Below are positions 9,007-40,077 of a stretch of 64,000 bases of DNA, in pieces. The position numbers and the translations under genes were made by a program. Location of the stretch: NCBI RefSeq assembly GCF_016860525.1, contig NZ_BNEA01000001.1:248001-312000 (forward strand), given 5' to 3'. The notes below the pieces were generated by a model. It searched no databases. It saw nothing but the letters and a program-made list of their open reading frames with translations, and was not told where the DNA came from. The DNA is from Streptomyces rubradiris. Lineage in GTDB: Bacteria; Actinomycetota; Actinomycetes; Streptomycetales; Streptomycetaceae. Positions within the stretch are counted from its first letter, which is position 1. Each line of letters starts with the position of its first letter.

Positions 9007-9294
9007 TCAGTACTCGTAGTACGCCGTCTTCAGCAGGATGTCCTGCCCCGGGAACATCACCTTGAGCCGACGCTCCAACCGCGTCTCCAATTCCCGAGCA
9101 GCATCCGCCGCCGCAGCATCACCGAGGCCCAACAGGTGGGCGACGTAGTGCAGCGCACGCGCTTCCCCGAACGTCAGCAGCGGCATCAACTCGCCGCCCT
9201 CGTCCAGCAGCTTCGACAGTTCCTCGTCTACCGGCTCCATGCCCTGCCAACGGCCGGCCGCCGCCGACGGCACGGGATTCTCGCGCCGTGTCAC
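9007..9294 (-). CDS. Hypothetical helical phage protein (95 aa)
   Basis: The minus-strand frame opens at GTG 9294; an ATG at 9240 (77 aa) behind GCAGGG is an equal candidate. The product is mostly helical and acidic (VDEELSKLLDEGGELMPLL, ARELETRLERRL), ending AYYEY. No domain is recognised. It is the last gene of a minus-strand block that runs back to 10,307. Confidence 0.6.
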   Translation of the reverse strand: MTRRENPVPSAAAGRWQGMEPVDEELSKLLDEGGELMPLLTFGEARALHYVAHLLGLGDAAAADAARELETRLERRLKVMFPGQDILLKTAYYEY

Positions 9295-9315
9295 CCGCCC
9301 GGCAGATAGCCCCGG

Positions 9316-9522
9316 TCAGTGCTCCCACGCGTCCGGTCCGCCGCCCCGCCACTCGATCCAGCCGGCTGTCACCACGTCGGTGTCCTCGATCGTGTCCAGG
9401 CCGGCCCGGCGTAGGAACTCGACCATGTCCTTCAGCCCGAACGCGCGGCCCGAGATCTCTCCGTCGACTCGGATGCGCCGGCCGCCTTCTTCGTCGGGCG
9501 GGTACACGATCACCACAGGCAT
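9316..9522 (-). CDS. Small conserved-type phage protein (68 aa)
   Basis: The start is ATG 9522 on the minus strand, giving MPVVIVYPPDEEGGRRIRV at the N-terminus; the longer frame upstream looks non-coding. The product reads as a small beta-alpha protein ending GWIEWRGGG. I recall very similar short proteins in many Streptomyces genomes and phages, always without function. Its neighbours are all on the minus strand. Confidence 0.7.
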   Translation of the reverse strand: MPVVIVYPPDEEGGRRIRVDGEISGRAFGLKDMVEFLRRAGLDTIEDTDVVTAGWIEWRGGGPDAWEH

Positions 9523-9677
9523 GGTGGACAGCCTGCCGCACGGCACTGACAACGGCCTGCTGGGTACGGCCGGACGGAGCGCCGCTTGACAGGGGTGTGA
9601 TTCTGGGAGTGCTGCCGGGCGGACCAGCTGCTCGCGCACCGGCAGCACTGCTACGGCGCCTGGAACCCGCCCAGCAT

Positions 9678-9715
9678 GACGATAGCCCCGGCCACAGTGG
9701 ACCGGGGCTATCGTC
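9678..9715 (-). terminator. Strong hairpin, perfect 14-bp stem
   Basis: 9678-9691 and 9702-9715 are exact reverse complements around a 10-base loop. It lies 3 bases beyond the minus-strand stop at 9719, so it most likely ends the HTH-regulator transcript. Confidence 0.85.
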
Positions 9716-9718
9716 TGT

Positions 9719-10015
9719 TCAAGATCCGAAGCGTTCCAGATATCGGCACCGCTGACAGGTACCCATCGGACATACGTCCGCCCGGTGCTCCCGTCGCCAG
9801 TTCTCGCAGCCCGGCGCCGTCGGCATCCAGCTCACATCCTTCATCGGCGTCTCATCGCCCATGAGCATCGTGCTGGTCCTCTTGAACGCCTCGTGCGTTT
9901 CATGGTGGAGCCGCATCCCCTCTGGAGACGGATCGCTGTACAGGAACTCGCTTACCTCGTGCAGCAGCTTCCGCAGGCGGGACACCTCGTCACGCCACTT
10001 CGCCAGCTCATCCAT
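9719..10015 (-). CDS. Hypothetical phage protein with Cys-rich C-terminus (98 aa)
   Basis: The start is ATG 10015 on the minus strand, overlapping the upstream gene's end by 8 bases. The N-terminal half is a charged helix (MDELAKWRDEVSRLRKLL). The C-terminal part has four Cys (GCENW, VCPMGTCQRC) that may bind metal. It is translated together with the HTH protein and may act with it. Confidence 0.7.
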   Translation of the reverse strand: MDELAKWRDEVSRLRKLLHEVSEFLYSDPSPEGMRLHHETHEAFKRTSTMLMGDETPMKDVSWMPTAPGCENWRREHRADVCPMGTCQRCRYLERFGS

Positions 10016-10307
10016 CCGACGCCTCCTTCTTCGGTCGCACGGTCCCCGACCCCTTGTAGCCACGGAAGACGTCCTGCACCGTGCTGAGCTTGATCCCGAG
10101 GCGGTCGGCGATCTGCCGATACGAGAGCCCGTTGCCGTCGTTCCACAGCTCGCGGATCAGCTCGCTGCGCTCCTGCGCCCAGACCTTATTTCGGCGGACC
10201 TGCTCAGCCATGATCTTGCTCTGGGCTCTGACCCGCTCTTCCCGGTCCGCGATCTGTTCGACCGCATCGAGGGCGTCTGACACGCGGCGCACCTCCTCGT
10301 CGTCCAT
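10008..10307 (-). CDS. Helix-turn-helix DNA-binding protein (99 aa)
   Basis: The start is ATG 10307 (MDDEEVRRVSDALDAVEQI); a start at 10340 would add 11 residues. Residues ~30-60 are a charged helix. Residues ~60-85 carry an HTH of the sigma-region-4/homeodomain-like type (LSYRQIADRLGIKLSTVQDV) with a basic tail. It is transcribed away from the operator region 10,334-10,389 and from the plus-strand operon at 10,461, so it probably regulates itself and that operon. The target is inferred from position. Confidence 0.75.
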   Translation of the reverse strand: MDDEEVRRVSDALDAVEQIADREERVRAQSKIMAEQVRRNKVWAQERSELIRELWNDGNGLSYRQIADRLGIKLSTVQDVFRGYKGSGTVRPKKEASDG

Positions 10308-10333
10308 CCCTGGCCCTTCATTCGTGGGGCCGC

Positions 10334-10389
10334 TTGCCAAGAGCGTAGGGGACCCCTACAGTCATGGGCAAGCGACCGGGAGTCGCTTA
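10334..10389 (+). promoter_or_regulatory. Sigma-70-type promoter with nested palindromic operator
   Basis: TTGCCA at 10335-10340 and TACAGT at 10358-10363 are separated by exactly 17 bases, a good primary-sigma promoter pointing into the plus-strand operon that starts at 10,461. The spacer and -10 are covered by a perfect 15-bp palindrome, GTAGGGGACCCCTAC (10346-10360). A second perfect 7-bp inverted repeat follows (10371-10377 with 10383-10389). CTTGCC/GGCAAG (10334-10339, 10368-10373) forms an outer pair. The HTH gene ending at 10,307 is divergent, which fits an operator. Confidence 0.75.
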
Positions 10390-11432: not shown

Positions 11433-12557
11433 ATGAAACGCATCCGTGCCACCGCGGCGCGGCTCGACGTGTTCGCCGTCGTGGAGACGCTCCTCACCCT
11501 GGCCGCGCTCGCCCTCGTGGCCATCACCGTCGGCGGCCAGCTCGGCCCCATGCTCGGCCTGCACGGCAAGCTGGGCATGATCGTTGGCTGGTCCGTCGCC
11601 CTCGTTTACGACGCCCTGTGGATCGGCTCCCTCCGCATGTCGGAAGTTGCGATCCGGCAGCGCTCCCGCATCGGCATGACCGTGATGCTCGGGCTGTCCG
11701 CGCTCGCACTCGGCGTCTCCACCAGCACCCTGTTCATCCTCGGCCACGCCAAGGTGTTCGCCTTCGTCCCCGTCGCCGCCGCCCTCTTCATGGGGCTCAG
11801 GTTGTTCGCCGGGAACGTCCTCGCCGACGGCGCCACCGCCGACAAGATCGCCGCCCAGTCCGCCGCCGACCGCAACGCCCGCGCCCTCGCCGCCGCCGAC
11901 GCCCGGCACCTACGGTCCGAGGCCACCACCGACGTCCTCACCGAGACCGCTGGCCACCTCGCGGAGATGGAGCGGCAGATCGCCCGCGCCGAGACGCTCA
12001 CGAAGGCGGAGAAGCGGATCAGCAAGGTCCGCGCCGAGGCGGAGCAGCGGCTGCGGAAGTCCGACAAGGAGCACGGCGAGCTGGCGGCAGCGTTCGCGGC
12101 ACGGCCCCTGGCACTGGCCGTCACGGCACCCGGCACGCCCGCCCTCCCCACCGGCACGGACCGTGCCGCCGACGACACGGACCCCACCGTGCACCCGGCT
12201 CCTCAGCCCGCCCTCGACACGGATGTCCCTGAGCCCGTGACGGACACCGACACGCAGGTCAACGACCACACCGACCCGGATCCCGGCACGGTCGACACGC
12301 CCCTGGTACCCCCCGTCACGCTCGCCGACCTCGCCGCCGTGACGGGCGTGCCGACCCCCGTGCCGGGTGAGCCGCTCACGGACGAGCAGCTCGATGTCGT
12401 GCTGCGGTTCCTGCGCTACTCCGACGACCCTCCCCGCTCCTACCGGCAGGCCAGCGCCGACTTCCGCGACCTCGGATTCGTCGGCAGCGAGGAGCGCGTC
12501 CGCCGCGCCTGGGCCGCCCTGATGACGAAGGAAGAGACCGCTCCCGCAGGCGAGTAG
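11433..12557 (+). CDS. Four-TM membrane protein with coiled coil and C-terminal winged-helix-like domain (374 aa)
   Basis: The start is ATG 11433 after GAAAGGA. Hydrophobic segments lie at about 14-34, 47-67, 80-102 and 106-126. Residues ~165-220 are a charged coiled coil (ERQIARAETLTKAEKRISKV). An acidic, Pro/Thr-rich linker follows. Residues ~305-365 read like a winged helix (LTDEQLDVVLRFLRYSDD, RSYRQASADFRDLGFVGSEE). The membrane part resembles DUF2637-type proteins found beside transfer genes of Streptomyces plasmids (from memory, weak). It is first of five membrane-protein genes in a row. Confidence 0.75.
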   Translation: MKRIRATAARLDVFAVVETLLTLAALALVAITVGGQLGPMLGLHGKLGMIVGWSVALVYDALWIGSLRMSEVAIRQRSRIGMTVMLGLSALALGVSTSTLFILGHAKVFAFVPVAAALFMGLRLFAGNVLADGATADKIAAQSAADRNARALAAADARHLRSEATTDVLTETAGHLAEMERQIARAETLTKAEKRISKVRAEAEQRLRKSDKEHGELAAAFAARPLALAVTAPGTPALPTGTDRAADDTDPTVHPAPQPALDTDVPEPVTDTDTQVNDHTDPDPGTVDTPLVPPVTLADLAAVTGVPTPVPGEPLTDEQLDVVLRFLRYSDDPPRSYRQASADFRDLGFVGSEERVRRAWAALMTKEETAPAGE

Positions 12558-12718
12558 CCCAGCGTCCGGCACCACCAGTGAGGGCCAGCACCACCCGGGT
12601 CTGGCCCTCGCTGCGACTGCCGGAAGCAGTCCAGGGACGGCGAGTGACCGGCGAGCACCCCGTGCAGACCCGGCGAGCAGACCCCGACCTACCCACTCCG
12701 ACCCGTGAGGACCGCCGC

Positions 12719-13198
12719 ATGACCAGCGAGGGCGCCGACGAGCTACGCGCCCGCCACTACCTCCGTGGTCTAGGCGCCCGCCCCCTCGGCCATCAGGAGC
12801 CCACCGTGGAGCCACGCCTCGTGACCCCCACCCGCATCATCCCCGCCGGCGCGCTGCTGCCCGTTGGGCCACCGGCCCGCCCGCCTTCCCGCCCCGAAGG
12901 GCCACCCTCAATGCTGCTCGCCCTGCTCGCCGCGGCACTGCTGCCCGGCGCTATCACCACCTGGCTGATGCGCCACCGAGGATGGGCCATCGCCCTCCTC
13001 GCCGGCATCGGAGCCACCGCAGCCCTGCCGTTCTTGCTGCTCACCGCCTTGGTCGTGTTCCCGCCGCTCGGGTTCGCGGTCGGTATCGCCGCTGGCCTGG
13101 CCGCGCTGGACGCGTTCGGCGCCGGCCGGATCTGGGCCGCAACTGCCCTGGCCACCGTCTCTGCCGTGGCGCTCGCCTGCGCGGGGTGGTCGCTGTGA
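12719..13198 (+). CDS. Four-TM membrane protein with TPTRIIPAG motif (159 aa)
   Basis: I chose ATG 12719 (MTSEGADELRARHYLRGLG); the open frame upstream looks non-coding. Residues 35-48, VTPTRIIPAGALLP, recur with small changes in the next gene product. A Pro-rich stretch follows, then hydrophobic segments at about 66-83, 90-112, 115-131 and 138-157. It overlaps the next gene by 4 bases. No family is recognised. Confidence 0.7.
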   Translation: MTSEGADELRARHYLRGLGARPLGHQEPTVEPRLVTPTRIIPAGALLPVGPPARPPSRPEGPPSMLLALLAAALLPGAITTWLMRHRGWAIALLAGIGATAALPFLLLTALVVFPPLGFAVGIAAGLAALDAFGAGRIWAATALATVSAVALACAGWSL

Positions 13199-13770
13199 GC
13201 GGTCGTCACCCGATCACCCCAACCCGAGTCATCCCCGCGGGGGAGGCGCTGCCCGCGCCGGGCACGCCCCCGCCACCTCCTCCACCCCCGCCTCCGTTCC
13301 CGCCCGCCCCGGGCCCCGGTCCGGACTGGTGGCGGCACCGCCCGCGACCGGCCGTCGTACCGCCTCAGCCGGTCCCGGTCGACGTCCACGTCCACGTCAC
13401 CATCGACGCCGGACCGCCTGAGCCGCCCCCGGATCCACCCTGGTGGCGCCGGATCCGCTGGGGCTACCACGCGGTGATGGCCCTCGCCGCGTTCCCGCTG
13501 TCCGGGCCGTGGGCCTGGGTCCTCGCCGATGTCCGCGAGCAGGCCTCCCTCACCGGGACCTGGGTGATCGCGGTCACCCCACTGGCCATCGTCGCCTGGT
13601 GGGACAACGCCGCCCGGATCCAGGCCCGGCACGCTGACCCGGACCTGTGGGGGCCCAAGGTCCGCGCCACCGCGGCCCGGCTCGTCCTGTACGCCACCGC
13701 CGAGGCCACCGCCCTGACTCTCCCGATCACCACGCTCGTCTTCTGGACCACCGGAGTGCACACGTCATGA
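13195..13770 (+). CDS. Membrane protein with TPTRVIPAG motif and polyproline arm (191 aa)
   Basis: GTG 13195 overlaps the upstream stop. Residues 7-20, ITPTRVIPAGEALP, match the motif in the preceding product. Residues 24-45 are almost pure proline. A His/Val strand region (VDVHVHVTIDAG) precedes three hydrophobic segments near 92-114, 121-140 and 165-187. A polyproline arm ahead of membrane helices would suit reaching through or along the envelope, or binding a partner domain; that is inference. Confidence 0.7.
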   Translation: MSGRHPITPTRVIPAGEALPAPGTPPPPPPPPPPFPPAPGPGPDWWRHRPRPAVVPPQPVPVDVHVHVTIDAGPPEPPPDPPWWRRIRWGYHAVMALAAFPLSGPWAWVLADVREQASLTGTWVIAVTPLAIVAWWDNAARIQARHADPDLWGPKVRATAARLVLYATAEATALTLPITTLVFWTTGVHTS

Positions 13771-14351
13771 ACCAATTCGCGACCAGCACGGTCACAACCG
13801 CTGGCTTCGCCCTCGCCCTCGGCCTCCTCGGCGCTGAGCTGTGGCAGTGGTGGAAGGGCGGAAGTGGGGGAGGCGGCAAGGGCAAGGCAGGCGCCCCCGC
13901 CGAGGCCGGCGGCCCAGCCCGTGACCCCAAGGCCCTGATCCCCCTGGTCTTCGGCATTGTCTTCGGCATCCTCATGGTCGGGTGCCCCTCCGGAGCCCTC
14001 GGCAAGGCGGGCAGCGTGCTGCGCTGGGGCGGCAACGGGGCTGGCGGCGCCATCATGGGGTTCGTGACCGGCCAGGACGGCGCCGAGTTCGCACAGGCCA
14101 CCGCGCCGCGCCTTGACGAGTACGGTGCCGTCCTTGTCACCGCCCTTGTCATCGCCCTCTGGATCGTCCGGAAGAAGATCCCCAAGCTGCCCAAGGGCAA
14201 GTGGAAGAAGGGCGTCTTCATCGGCCTGATGCTGTGCATCAGCACCGGCACGGCCGCGCTCGTCGCGCAGACCGTCATCGGCGGCACCAACGACCTCGGG
14301 CGCCAGGCCTTCGGCATCATCAAGAATGCGGACCTCGGGGATCTGGCGTGA
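13767..14351 (+). CDS. Four-TM membrane protein with Gly-rich loop (194 aa)
   Basis: ATG 13767 overlaps the upstream stop. Hydrophobic segments lie at about 8-27, 56-73, 119-136 and 149-169. Between the first two is a GGSGGGGKGKAG loop, and a basic patch (RKKIPKLPKGKWKKG, 135-149) precedes the last. The layout recalls small Gly-rich spread proteins of Streptomyces plasmids, but identity is not established. Confidence 0.7.
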   Translation: MNQFATSTVTTAGFALALGLLGAELWQWWKGGSGGGGKGKAGAPAEAGGPARDPKALIPLVFGIVFGILMVGCPSGALGKAGSVLRWGGNGAGGAIMGFVTGQDGAEFAQATAPRLDEYGAVLVTALVIALWIVRKKIPKLPKGKWKKGVFIGLMLCISTGTAALVAQTVIGGTNDLGRQAFGIIKNADLGDLA

Positions 14352-15184
14352 GCGCCCCGACCACCGCCCAGTGGCTCCGCGCGGCCGTCGACCGGGTCGC
14401 CGTCGGCAGCCCACGGCTGGGCGCCCACTGGGCGCGACGCACGATCCAGCGGCTGCGCCGCACGAGCCGGCGCGCCAGGACCTGGGTGGGCGAGGCGTCC
14501 GGGTTCGACAAGGCATTCCGTCTGGCGCTGCTGGCCGCCGCCGTCTGGATCCTCCGCAAGGTCGGCGTTCGGCTGGGCGGGTGGGCGTACCACCGGATCG
14601 AGTCCGGCGCCTGGTGGTGGCTGCTGGCCGCGTGCTCGACGGTGTGGATCGCCGCGGCGTACCGCGCCGGCCGGGCCGACTGGCAGCCGGCTCCGGTCCC
14701 GGCGCCAGCTGACGTTGTACCCGGCGGGGACGACGCGGCTGAGGCGAAGCAGGCGCCGTCGGAGCCCGCCGTCGAGCAGGTCCCCGCCTCCGCTGGTCCG
14801 CCGCCCGTCTCCCCTGTCGCGCTCATTGCCGCAGTCCGGGACATCGGCACCCCGCACGCCCAACTCGTCCCCCTCGCCGAGCACCTCGGCACCACCACCG
14901 AGGCGGTGCGCACCGCAGCCGCCGGGATGGGGTGGCCGGTGAAGGACGTCCGGATGAAGGGCCGGTCGTCGGCGGCCGGCCTGCGCGGGGATGAGGTCCC
15001 CTCCCTACCCCCTGTCGACCCCTCTTCGGGTGTCGTCGGTGCAGGTCAGCCCGCCGACGACAACGACGACGACAGCGGTGAAGAGGGACCCGGAGAGGGG
15101 GTGCGTGTAGTGCGCACCGATGGCGGGCTGATCGTCTACGACCTCGCTGACACCCACCGCCGACGCGGCACCGTCCGCGCATAA
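14348..15184 (+). CDS. Two-TM membrane protein with cytoplasmic winged-helix-like tail (278 aa)
   Basis: GTG 14348 overlaps the upstream stop. Residues 1-50 are strongly basic (RRTIQRLRRTSRRART). Hydrophobic segments lie near 56-74 and 88-106. After an acidic Pro/Ala linker, residues ~155-215 form a probable winged helix (VALIAAVRDIG, LVPLAEHLGTTTEAVRTAA, GWPVKDVRMKGRSS). The end is acidic and Ser/Pro-rich. It is the second cassette member to join membrane anchoring to a DNA-binding-like domain, as in transfer or partition proteins. Confidence 0.72.
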   Translation: MSAPTTAQWLRAAVDRVAVGSPRLGAHWARRTIQRLRRTSRRARTWVGEASGFDKAFRLALLAAAVWILRKVGVRLGGWAYHRIESGAWWWLLAACSTVWIAAAYRAGRADWQPAPVPAPADVVPGGDDAAEAKQAPSEPAVEQVPASAGPPPVSPVALIAAVRDIGTPHAQLVPLAEHLGTTTEAVRTAAAGMGWPVKDVRMKGRSSAAGLRGDEVPSLPPVDPSSGVVGAGQPADDNDDDSGEEGPGEGVRVVRTDGGLIVYDLADTHRRRGTVRA

Positions 15185-39198: not shown

Positions 39199-40077
39199 AT
39201 GGCCACCCCGATGACGGCAACTCAGGTCGTCGCGCAGCTGAAAAAGTGGGGCCTGAAGTACGTCGAGATTCCCGGCTGGGCCACCCACAACCGCAACTCC
39301 AAGGGGGCGTGGGGCCCGGTCCACGGCTTCGTGTGGCACCACACCGGCGCAGACGTGAAGGACGCCCGCTCGTACGCCGGCAGCACCCTGTACAACGGCC
39401 TGTCGACGCTGCCGGGCCCGCTCTGCCACTTCTCCATCGGCACCGACGGCACCGTCTACCTGGTCGGCTGGGGCCGCACGAACCACGCGGGCGGTGGCGA
39501 CCCGGCGGTGCTCGCGCACGTGCAGGCGGAGGACTACAGCGGGCAGCTGAAGCCGACCCGCGGCAACTCCAACGGGGTCGACGGCAACGCGCACTTCTAC
39601 GGCGTCGAGATCCAGTACTCCGGGTCGCACGAGATGAGCCCGGCGCAGTACACGGCCGCCCGCCGACTGTCCGCGGCAATCCTGTCCTTCCACGGCTGGT
39701 CGGAGCGCTCGGTGATCGGGCACGGGGAGTGGTCGTCGGACAAGTGGGACCCCGGCTACGCGGCCGGGAAGATCATGCAGATGCCCACCGTGCGCGCGGA
39801 CGTGAAGGCCACGCTTGCCGCCGGCCCCGGCAAGACGACGCCGCCCGCGCCGTCGAAGCCGGCGCCGTCGCCTGCCGCGTTGACGGTGCAGGCGATCGCT
39901 GACGCGGTGTGGGCGGAGCCGCTGGTGTCCCCGACGGCCCCGCCAGGGACCAACGCGACCCGCGCGGCGGGGACGTACTTGCGCTGGCAGGACCAGCATC
40001 ACGCCGAGGTGATGCGCAAGCTGGACGACCTCACGAAGGCCATCGAGGGCCTGGCCTCGGCCATTACCAAGAGCTGA
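39199..40077 (+). CDS. Endolysin, N-acetylmuramoyl-L-alanine amidase (292 aa)
   Basis: The start is ATG 39199 after GAAAGAAGG. The Amidase_2 domain covers ~15-195: GFVWHHTGADV with zinc ligand His 47, then HFSIGTDGTVYLVGWG, then GVEIQYSG and VIGHGEWSSDKWDPG with His 175 and Asp 184, which complete the site. A Pro/Ala linker (~203-227) joins a C-terminal segment (TVQAIADAVWAEPLVSPTA, RWQDQHHAEVMRKLDDL) common in Streptomyces phage endolysins. It has no signal peptide, so it needs the holins at 40,095 and 40,322. It cuts the amide bond between muramic acid and the stem peptide. Confidence 0.93.
   Translation: MATPMTATQVVAQLKKWGLKYVEIPGWATHNRNSKGAWGPVHGFVWHHTGADVKDARSYAGSTLYNGLSTLPGPLCHFSIGTDGTVYLVGWGRTNHAGGGDPAVLAHVQAEDYSGQLKPTRGNSNGVDGNAHFYGVEIQYSGSHEMSPAQYTAARRLSAAILSFHGWSERSVIGHGEWSSDKWDPGYAAGKIMQMPTVRADVKATLAAGPGKTTPPAPSKPAPSPAALTVQAIADAVWAEPLVSPTAPPGTNATRAAGTYLRWQDQHHAEVMRKLDDLTKAIEGLASAITKS

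Follow-up and report, generated by a model that had tools for sequence, protein, structure and literature searches.

A five-gene membrane cassette in a Streptomyces rubradiris prophage and its likeness to plasmid spread operons

How a phage handles a multicellular, septate host is, to our knowledge, little understood, and a locus of Streptomyces rubradiris (assembly GCF_016860525.1) raises this question in a concrete form. In the stretch of 64,000 nucleotides analysed here (contig NZ_BNEA01000001.1, positions 248,001 to 312,000, forward strand; called the window, with all coordinates counted from its first letter), five consecutive genes, O1 to O5, encode membrane proteins inside a prophage, and it is asked what a phage could do with such a cassette. 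The best explanation, towards which we lean without quite holding it probable, is that the cassette is a motorless phage relative of the plasmid Spd-Tra (spread and transfer) operons, which would tether the phage DNA at the membrane for a motor of the host or of a resident element. The five genes, their order and their coding nature, as proposed in a sequence-only reading, are confirmed by the open reading frames and by codon-position GC (third-position GC 0.85–0.93), with a gap of 161 bases between O1 and O2 and three 4-base overlaps at O2/O3, O3/O4 and O4/O5. The claim that all five are membrane proteins also stands, the hydrophobic segments numbering 4, 3, 2, 3 and 1 in O1 to O5 by a simple hydropathy scan. 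With Pfam, NCBIfam and PHROGs, O2–O5 match PHROGs of unknown function and O1 gives nothing reliable.

O1 and the plasmid spread proteins

O1 (11433–12557, forward strand, 374 residues, ATG start) is predicted to be an integral membrane protein with a soluble tail, where four hydrophobic segments are followed by a long helix, a linker and the tail (residues 297–368). Its relatives are found on plasmids. The gene of SLP2 that is annotated as spdB2-like and that lies directly before an FtsK/SpoIIIE gene is 73% identical to O1 over 75 C-terminal residues, and a homologue on another linear plasmid aligns with O1 at 33% over 372 columns (E 3e-37). When O1 is compared with three plasmid proteins, the N-terminal part is 28–33% identical (80/243, 73/258 and 69/220 aligned positions) and the last 78 residues are 67–77% identical (55, 60 and 52 of 78). 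By tblastn, relatives occur in 54 plasmid records, 52 from Streptomyces and two named Kitasatospora, with 80% query coverage reached by none; among the 40 matches listed, all lie within residues 259–370, where the C-terminal domain is 51–78% identical. The family profile of O1 matches pIJ101 SpdB (95%, E 3e-8), mostly in the C-terminal motif, and it also matches the first genes of other phages, the gp97 family at 95% and the c8 type at 80%. Moreover, in four of the five plasmids fetched through O1 (L001, L002, L059 and L060, with L058 as the exception; such numbers are our labels for loci) an FtsK/SpoIIIE gene comes directly after the O1 homologue. Based on these sequence comparisons, O1 is taken as a homologue of the SpdB2-like spread proteins; this homology is well supported, and a spread function may go with it. 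According to passages of PMC4170104, the SpdB2 protein of pSVH1 is integral to the membrane and forms oligomers; its partners are TraB and Spd79, and its binding of double-stranded DNA is non-specific.

The sequence-only reading had placed a winged-helix-like domain at the C-terminus of both O1 and O5. For O5 this holds, residues 156–213 being predicted by AlphaFold as a winged helix with a predicted local distance difference test score (pLDDT) of 84–95 over the block, together with two further long helices after the first, beyond the one segment seen by hydropathy. For O1 it does not hold, since the tail is predicted to be all-helical with a pLDDT of about 85–89, in a whole-protein model that is weak (mean 64.6); Foldseek and VIA gave no confident match for or against a winged fold in this tail. 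It is also observed that 75 of 295 Streptomyces genomes have some match to O1, and that matches to the tail only (about residues 286–363, 33–47% identity) are widespread beyond the close family.

The element in the gap after O1

Where the sequence-only reading saw a plain gap, the 161 non-coding bases between O1 and O2 (12558–12718, forward strand) contain a clt-like element that is common to the gap after the plasmid SpdB2-like gene. On the forward strand it consists of a conserved hairpin (12566–12623) with an outer stem (12566–12571/12618–12623) and an inner stem (12578–12588/12601–12611), of the inverted hexamers GACTGC/GCAGTC (12615–12631), which overlap the 3' side of the outer stem and offer an alternative pairing, and of direct repeats (12638–12684), with CGGCGAG at 12638, 12649 and 12671 and CAGACCC at 12665 and 12678. 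All six plasmids compared have the hairpin and the repeats as well, in the gap that follows their SpdB2-like gene, and in SLP2 the element is flanked by spdB2 and the FtsK gene. The core is nearly identical between phages and plasmids, with 40 columns invariant across 23 sequences. At least two CAGACCC repeats occur in 24 of 25 element loci, compared with 1.3% of 5000 random stretches of 190 bases, and the phage copies have two to three of them.

The element is tied to the O1 family, whichever of the two is searched for first. In 24 of the 25 element loci (L135 and L173 being one place, and L177 and L179 identical in sequence there) an O1-family gene ends 7–34 bases upstream, the exception being L176. 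When the protein is searched for first, the element follows the stop codon in 18 of 30 O1-family loci, compared with one of 112 other genes of the same loci; here the 30 loci are those returned with sequence among the protein matches, and the copy of the window is counted among the 18. A 23-base core pattern with one mismatch allowed is found in 35 of 295 Streptomyces genomes at 45 places, 13 of them exact, and a reversed control pattern matches in seven genomes, so that some of the inexact matches are due to chance. Six IMG/VR contigs carry an exact copy of the core. In one 48-kb IMG/VR contig (L180) O1 and the element are followed by relatives of O3, O4 and O5, ordered as in the window, whereas in L177, L179, L181 and L182 the genes after O1 and the element are, by eye, closer to those of the Streptomyces phage TurkishDelight. 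O1 and the element thus behave as one unit, to which varying sets of downstream genes are joined.

It could be supposed that the element is an RNA structure, an attenuator or a processing site, which controls the downstream genes and is unrelated to DNA transfer. The inner stem covaries, as such a structure would, with 25 cells changed on both sides compared with a shuffled mean of 7.8 and with this number reached in none of 500 shuffles; 94.8% of the inner-stem cells are paired, compared with 20–41% once the partner is slid. Several copies, many being phage copies, have mismatches in the inner stem, and the outer stem is invariant and hence uninformative on pairing. However, the covariation fits an inverted repeat in DNA equally well, the direct repeats outside the stem are conserved, and no family in Rfam matches the element. 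We regard RNA control as rather unlikely.

The anatomy of the element resembles that of a clt transfer site. Clt sites, according to passages of PMC3583192, are non-coding, adjoin tra and combine inverted with direct repeats, and the same passages cite pSVH1 TraB as recognising repeats via a winged helix. Being tied to one SpdB2-type domain, the element would offer a candidate DNA target for the family of spread proteins.

The genes O2–O5 in prophages and plasmids

The four genes after the element are all on the forward strand. O2 (12719–13198, 159 residues, ATG) is a small membrane protein of phrog_34269; O3 (13195–13770, 191 residues, GTG) has a proline-rich N-terminus and membrane segments and belongs to phrog_15316; O4 (13767–14351, 194 residues, ATG) is a membrane protein of phrog_16379; and O5 (14348–15184, 278 residues, GTG), of phrog_24067, joins N-terminal hydrophobic helices to the winged helix. 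The sequence-only reading had considered the set unusual and had suggested looking for the same order in other prophages. The first point does not stand, while the search was rewarded: among 27 loci compared (the window, 12 from IMG/VR and 14 genome loci, some of which are copies of the same prophage, such as L022/L043 and L020/L041), O4 is followed by O5 in 24, O3–O4–O5 occur together in 22 and O2–O5 in 14, with contig ends accounting for part of the difference between these numbers, L050 giving fragments only and L046 and L052 having no cassette. With O4–O5 in 24 and O2–O5 in 14 of the 27 loci, the cassette is not due to chance. Thus O2–O5 is a recurrent module of Streptomyces prophages that stands behind interchangeable first genes, which are of the c8, c46 or DUF2637 types or are other membrane proteins with helix-turn-helix (HTH)-type tails. 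A proposed comparison with plasmid Spd and DUF2637 profiles gave a divided answer: the O1 family matches pIJ101 SpdB as stated above, whereas the O1 profile has no match to c46, DUF2637 and other first-gene types, and yet DUF2637 proteins fill the first-gene slot of some relatives (L044, L049 and L051).

In several loci (six were read) the protein after O4 has 93–138 residues and no winged helix. It is observed that L107, L109, L110, L116, L119 and L140 have in this way a reduced cassette, made of a two-helix protein of 47–53 residues, an O4-type protein and the 93–138-residue protein at the O5 position, and that four of these six begin with a membrane protein of 247–280 residues; the proteins at the O5 position share a motif of the SDSSA or SDWSA type and have no winged helix. 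Another observation concerns the start of the block. The N-terminal extension of O2 (GADELR... TPTRIIPAG; 12719–12870) is similar to the start of the O3-type protein downstream of the element in L180, and a 40-base repeat of 80% at 12824 and 13216 connects the starts of O2 and O3; both suggest that the 5' end of the block has undergone recombination or a duplication.

O4 provides the second link to plasmids. A relative of the O4-like protein of plasmid locus L058 is encoded in 21 Streptomyces plasmid records, L058 included and several being near-identical S. cellulosae plasmids, and nine of them were inspected (L058 and L064–L071). In all nine the operon opens with a gene for a membrane or coiled-coil protein, after which come at least one gene of small or medium size, the O3-like gene, the O4-like gene and a gene for a protein of 750–780 residues (split in L065), with the O4-like protein of 166–172 residues encoded directly before this FtsK-like gene. 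Compared as profiles, the O4 families of phages and plasmids give an E of 7.5e-9 and a score of 58.8, whereas the reversed control scores 12.3 and none of 20 column shuffles exceeds 17.0. The large protein matches the pIJ101 TraB profile (76%, E 2e-5), and that of L058 matches the SLP2-type Tra profile with 52 bits; a profile-profile comparison of the large proteins with SLP2-type Tra gave no match, and Pfam FtsK was not reached. At the position taken by this translocase in the plasmids, the phage has O5. It is also noted that L128 and L135 have two O4-like stretches in a row ahead of a plasmid-type translocase, and that two adjacent O4 matches occur in genomes G075 and G149.

The distribution of O4 was searched with a profile that included one plasmid row. 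The profile matches 72 of 392 Streptomyces genomes; across the phylum it matches 8 of 396 genomes, all eight in the genus of the window (one of 236 genera), and in the order 49 of 293 genomes, in two of nine genera that both lie within the family of the window. Among the Actinomycetota genomes sampled, the O4 family is limited to the taxonomic family of the window, which we count in favour of the preferred explanation. Of 40 O4 loci fetched, 21 have relatives of terminase or portal genes on the same strand, two have the plasmid translocase, and in the other 17 the fetched stretch shows neither; in one of the 17, L140, the opposite strand bears a gene that by eye resembles a tape-measure gene. 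The O4 superfamily connects many unannotated prophage and plasmid proteins. Direct searches gave less, as tblastn found no phage record with O1, O4 or O5 and no plasmid record with O4 or O5, and a DNA search with the whole cassette found no phage match, in collections that may omit records near the genome of the window.

Prophage setting, possible function and comparison with known systems

The window lies within a genome of 9.05 Mb, and its relatives in these comparisons are Streptomyces genomes and plasmids. An integrase-type gene lies about 12.5–13.8 kb to the left of the window (L062:6173–7534; Phage_int_SAM_3, 24.7 bits at a cut-off of 22.6; no match to PF00589), and within the window follow a terminase (20498), a portal (22073), a major head (24773) and a tape-measure gene (31215) and an amidase endolysin (39199–40077). 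The five genes are inside an integrated prophage of about 54 kb from the integrase-type gene to the endolysin, its exact ends not having been found. As claimed in the sequence-only reading, O1–O5 lie between small early-type genes on one side and the terminase, portal and head genes on the other. It is also observed that a minus-strand block (9007–10340) with an HTH protein (10008–10340) faces the cassette operon and that related genes (c7) also precede the cassette on the minus strand in relatives; the block and the operon are a possible lysis-lysogeny switch.

With hydrophobic segments in all five proteins, the cassette could consist of commonplace membrane genes of a phage, for instance for holins or lysis helpers. 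By contrast, the endolysin-type amidase lies elsewhere, Pfam, PHROGs and NCBIfam give no holin match for any of the five, a match that the sequence-only reading had named as decisive against it (small holins are often missed), and O1 and O4 are homologous to plasmid proteins, so that this explanation is very improbable. Another explanation takes the complex as a membrane-bound platform for replication or segregation, which anchors replicating or packaging phage DNA with no intercellular step. The early-to-late position upstream of the terminase genes would suit it, as would the reduced stability of an SLP2 spdB2 mutant described in a passage of PMC4170104. However, the homologues are tied to spread and transfer and the shared element adjoins plasmid transfer genes, and we consider such a platform unlikely.

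No DNA-pumping motor was found with the phage. The FtsK family (PF01580) has matches on other contigs of the same genome, one with an open frame of 538 residues, and none inside the window, nor in 14 related phage records, some being fragments; five profiles, from plasmid translocases, pIJ101 TraB and two FtsK genes of the genome, matched no called gene in the window and 26 related phage-type loci. With no TraB/FtsK motor seen, the locus does not encode a Spd/TraB machine that could work by itself. The likeness to Spd proteins drawn in the sequence-only reading survives for O1, homologous to SLP2 spdB2-like protein and pIJ101 SpdB, and for O4, homologous to a plasmid protein next to an FtsK-like gene, and fails for the motor.

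A cassette without a motor can be read in two further ways. In one, the Spd-type copies and a decoy element would poison the TraB transfer of plasmids and of actinomycete integrative and conjugative elements (AICEs), thereby protecting the lysogen or barring competitors, and a dominant-negative inhibitor would be expected to look like this, with motorless homologues of transfer subunits and a cis element common to phage and plasmids. On the other hand, the first gene is swapped among families with different DNA-binding-type tails while O4 and O5 are kept, to which self-recognition fits at least equally well, and the position just before the terminase genes would point to expression once the phage is induced, and not in the lysogen; we hold such exclusion to be improbable. 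In the other, the element would serve in trans as a mobilisation site: the TraB encoded by an SLP2-like plasmid or an AICE resident in the host would recognise it, either on the excised circle or on the lysogen chromosome, and transfer the DNA bearing it to another mycelium, aided by the SpdB2-type protein of the phage. The near-identical core, its location in SLP2 and the lack of a motor in a phage whose host genome has FtsK-family matches argue for this, whereas the phage CAGACCC repeats are spaced somewhat unlike those of plasmids and cassettes with other first genes have no exact copy of the element; we give such hitch-hiking a low probability.

Based on the explanation that we prefer, the motorless relative of the Spd-Tra operons, O1 and O5 would bind the phage DNA, O1 perhaps at the gap element, and O1–O5 would assemble in the membrane, probably at the hyphal cross-walls, holding the excised phage genome. 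A host FtsK-type motor, or the TraB of a resident plasmid or AICE, would then pass the phage DNA to neighbouring compartments, with the result that the phage spreads or persists in the mycelium before or without lysis. Since the protein O1, the site and the partner O4 are shared with plasmids, the simplest reading would be a spread module acquired from, or exchanged with, them, minus the motor. A bolder form, in which a temperate phage, equipped with a transfer site of the plasmid type and with the spread protein that belongs to it, moves as naked double-stranded DNA between compartments or mycelia via a borrowed FtsK/TraB motor and without virions, seems to us rather unlikely.

Several points weigh against the preferred explanation. 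Judged by PF01580 and the plasmid Tra profiles, the phage encodes no motor. O2, O3 and O5 have no demonstrated plasmid homologue: a profile comparison of O5 with plasmid translocases gave no match, and the similarity of O3 to the plasmid protein before the O4-like gene appears weak (score 23.2, compared with 18.2 reversed and 16.5 for the best of 20 shuffles; probability 3.7%). No recognisable copy of the element was found at 12 of the 30 O1-family genes, and no exact pattern in cassettes with first genes of the c8, c46 or DUF2637 types; as the latter two have no O1 profile match either, the element is not general to the module. That it is the clt of SLP2 we infer. Among the O4 homologues listed, one (P0327) belongs to a bin that bears the name Dormibacteraeota, and the limitation to the host family might be due to the host range of the phages and not to mycelial growth. 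Note also that the prophage is integrated, so that a lysogen needs no plasmid-like maintenance.

If the bolder form is true, a phage would also travel by conjugation-like spread, without virions. A phage module with a membrane protein, a partner protein and a cis element in common with the spread operons of plasmids offers a concrete test of whether phage DNA crosses hyphal cross-walls, and likewise of whether conjugative elements can move phages. In a mostly open-access literature no account of phages with Spd-type genes came to light, which is weak evidence of novelty, and passages of PMC11302927 do not mention Spd.

The cassette can finally be set beside the known systems. The spdB2-like gene of SLP2 (L001) and its homologues on other Streptomyces plasmids are like O1 in overall layout and have the same element after the stop codon, and differ in that the FtsK/SpoIIIE gene usually comes next, where the phage has O2–O5, and in the low identity of the N-terminal part. 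The SpdB of pIJ101 is like O1 at the profile level, and is shorter (291 residues) and lies beside spdA and a large Tra-type gene. The L058-type operons share with the cassette the gene order, the homology of O4 and an exchangeable first gene, which there encodes a DUF2637, an SpdB2-like or a long coiled-coil protein, and they end in the ATPase-type protein where the cassette ends in O5. The clt loci of pIJ101, pJV1, pWTY27 and pSVH1, as far as the consulted parts of the sources describe them, are like the gap element non-coding, with inverted and short direct repeats beside spread or transfer genes; the phage element, by contrast, has no adjoining tra gene and is a candidate TraB site by its anatomy, the repeat sequences varying among plasmids.

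Among the closest known systems is also the cluster gp97–gp100 of TurkishDelight (L054, NC_073473.1), which like the cassette has a c8/SpdB-type first and an O5-type last gene, and unlike it has two middle genes with no detectable relation to O3 and O4 and no exact element pattern. A cluster of the same kind is carried by the 103-kb plasmid pSITFR-21c (L057, NZ_CP134608.1), which may be a phage-plasmid. Moreover, a phage-capsid-like gene on the conjugative plasmid pWTY27, noted in a passage of PMC3583192, gives an independent hint of exchange between plasmids and phages.

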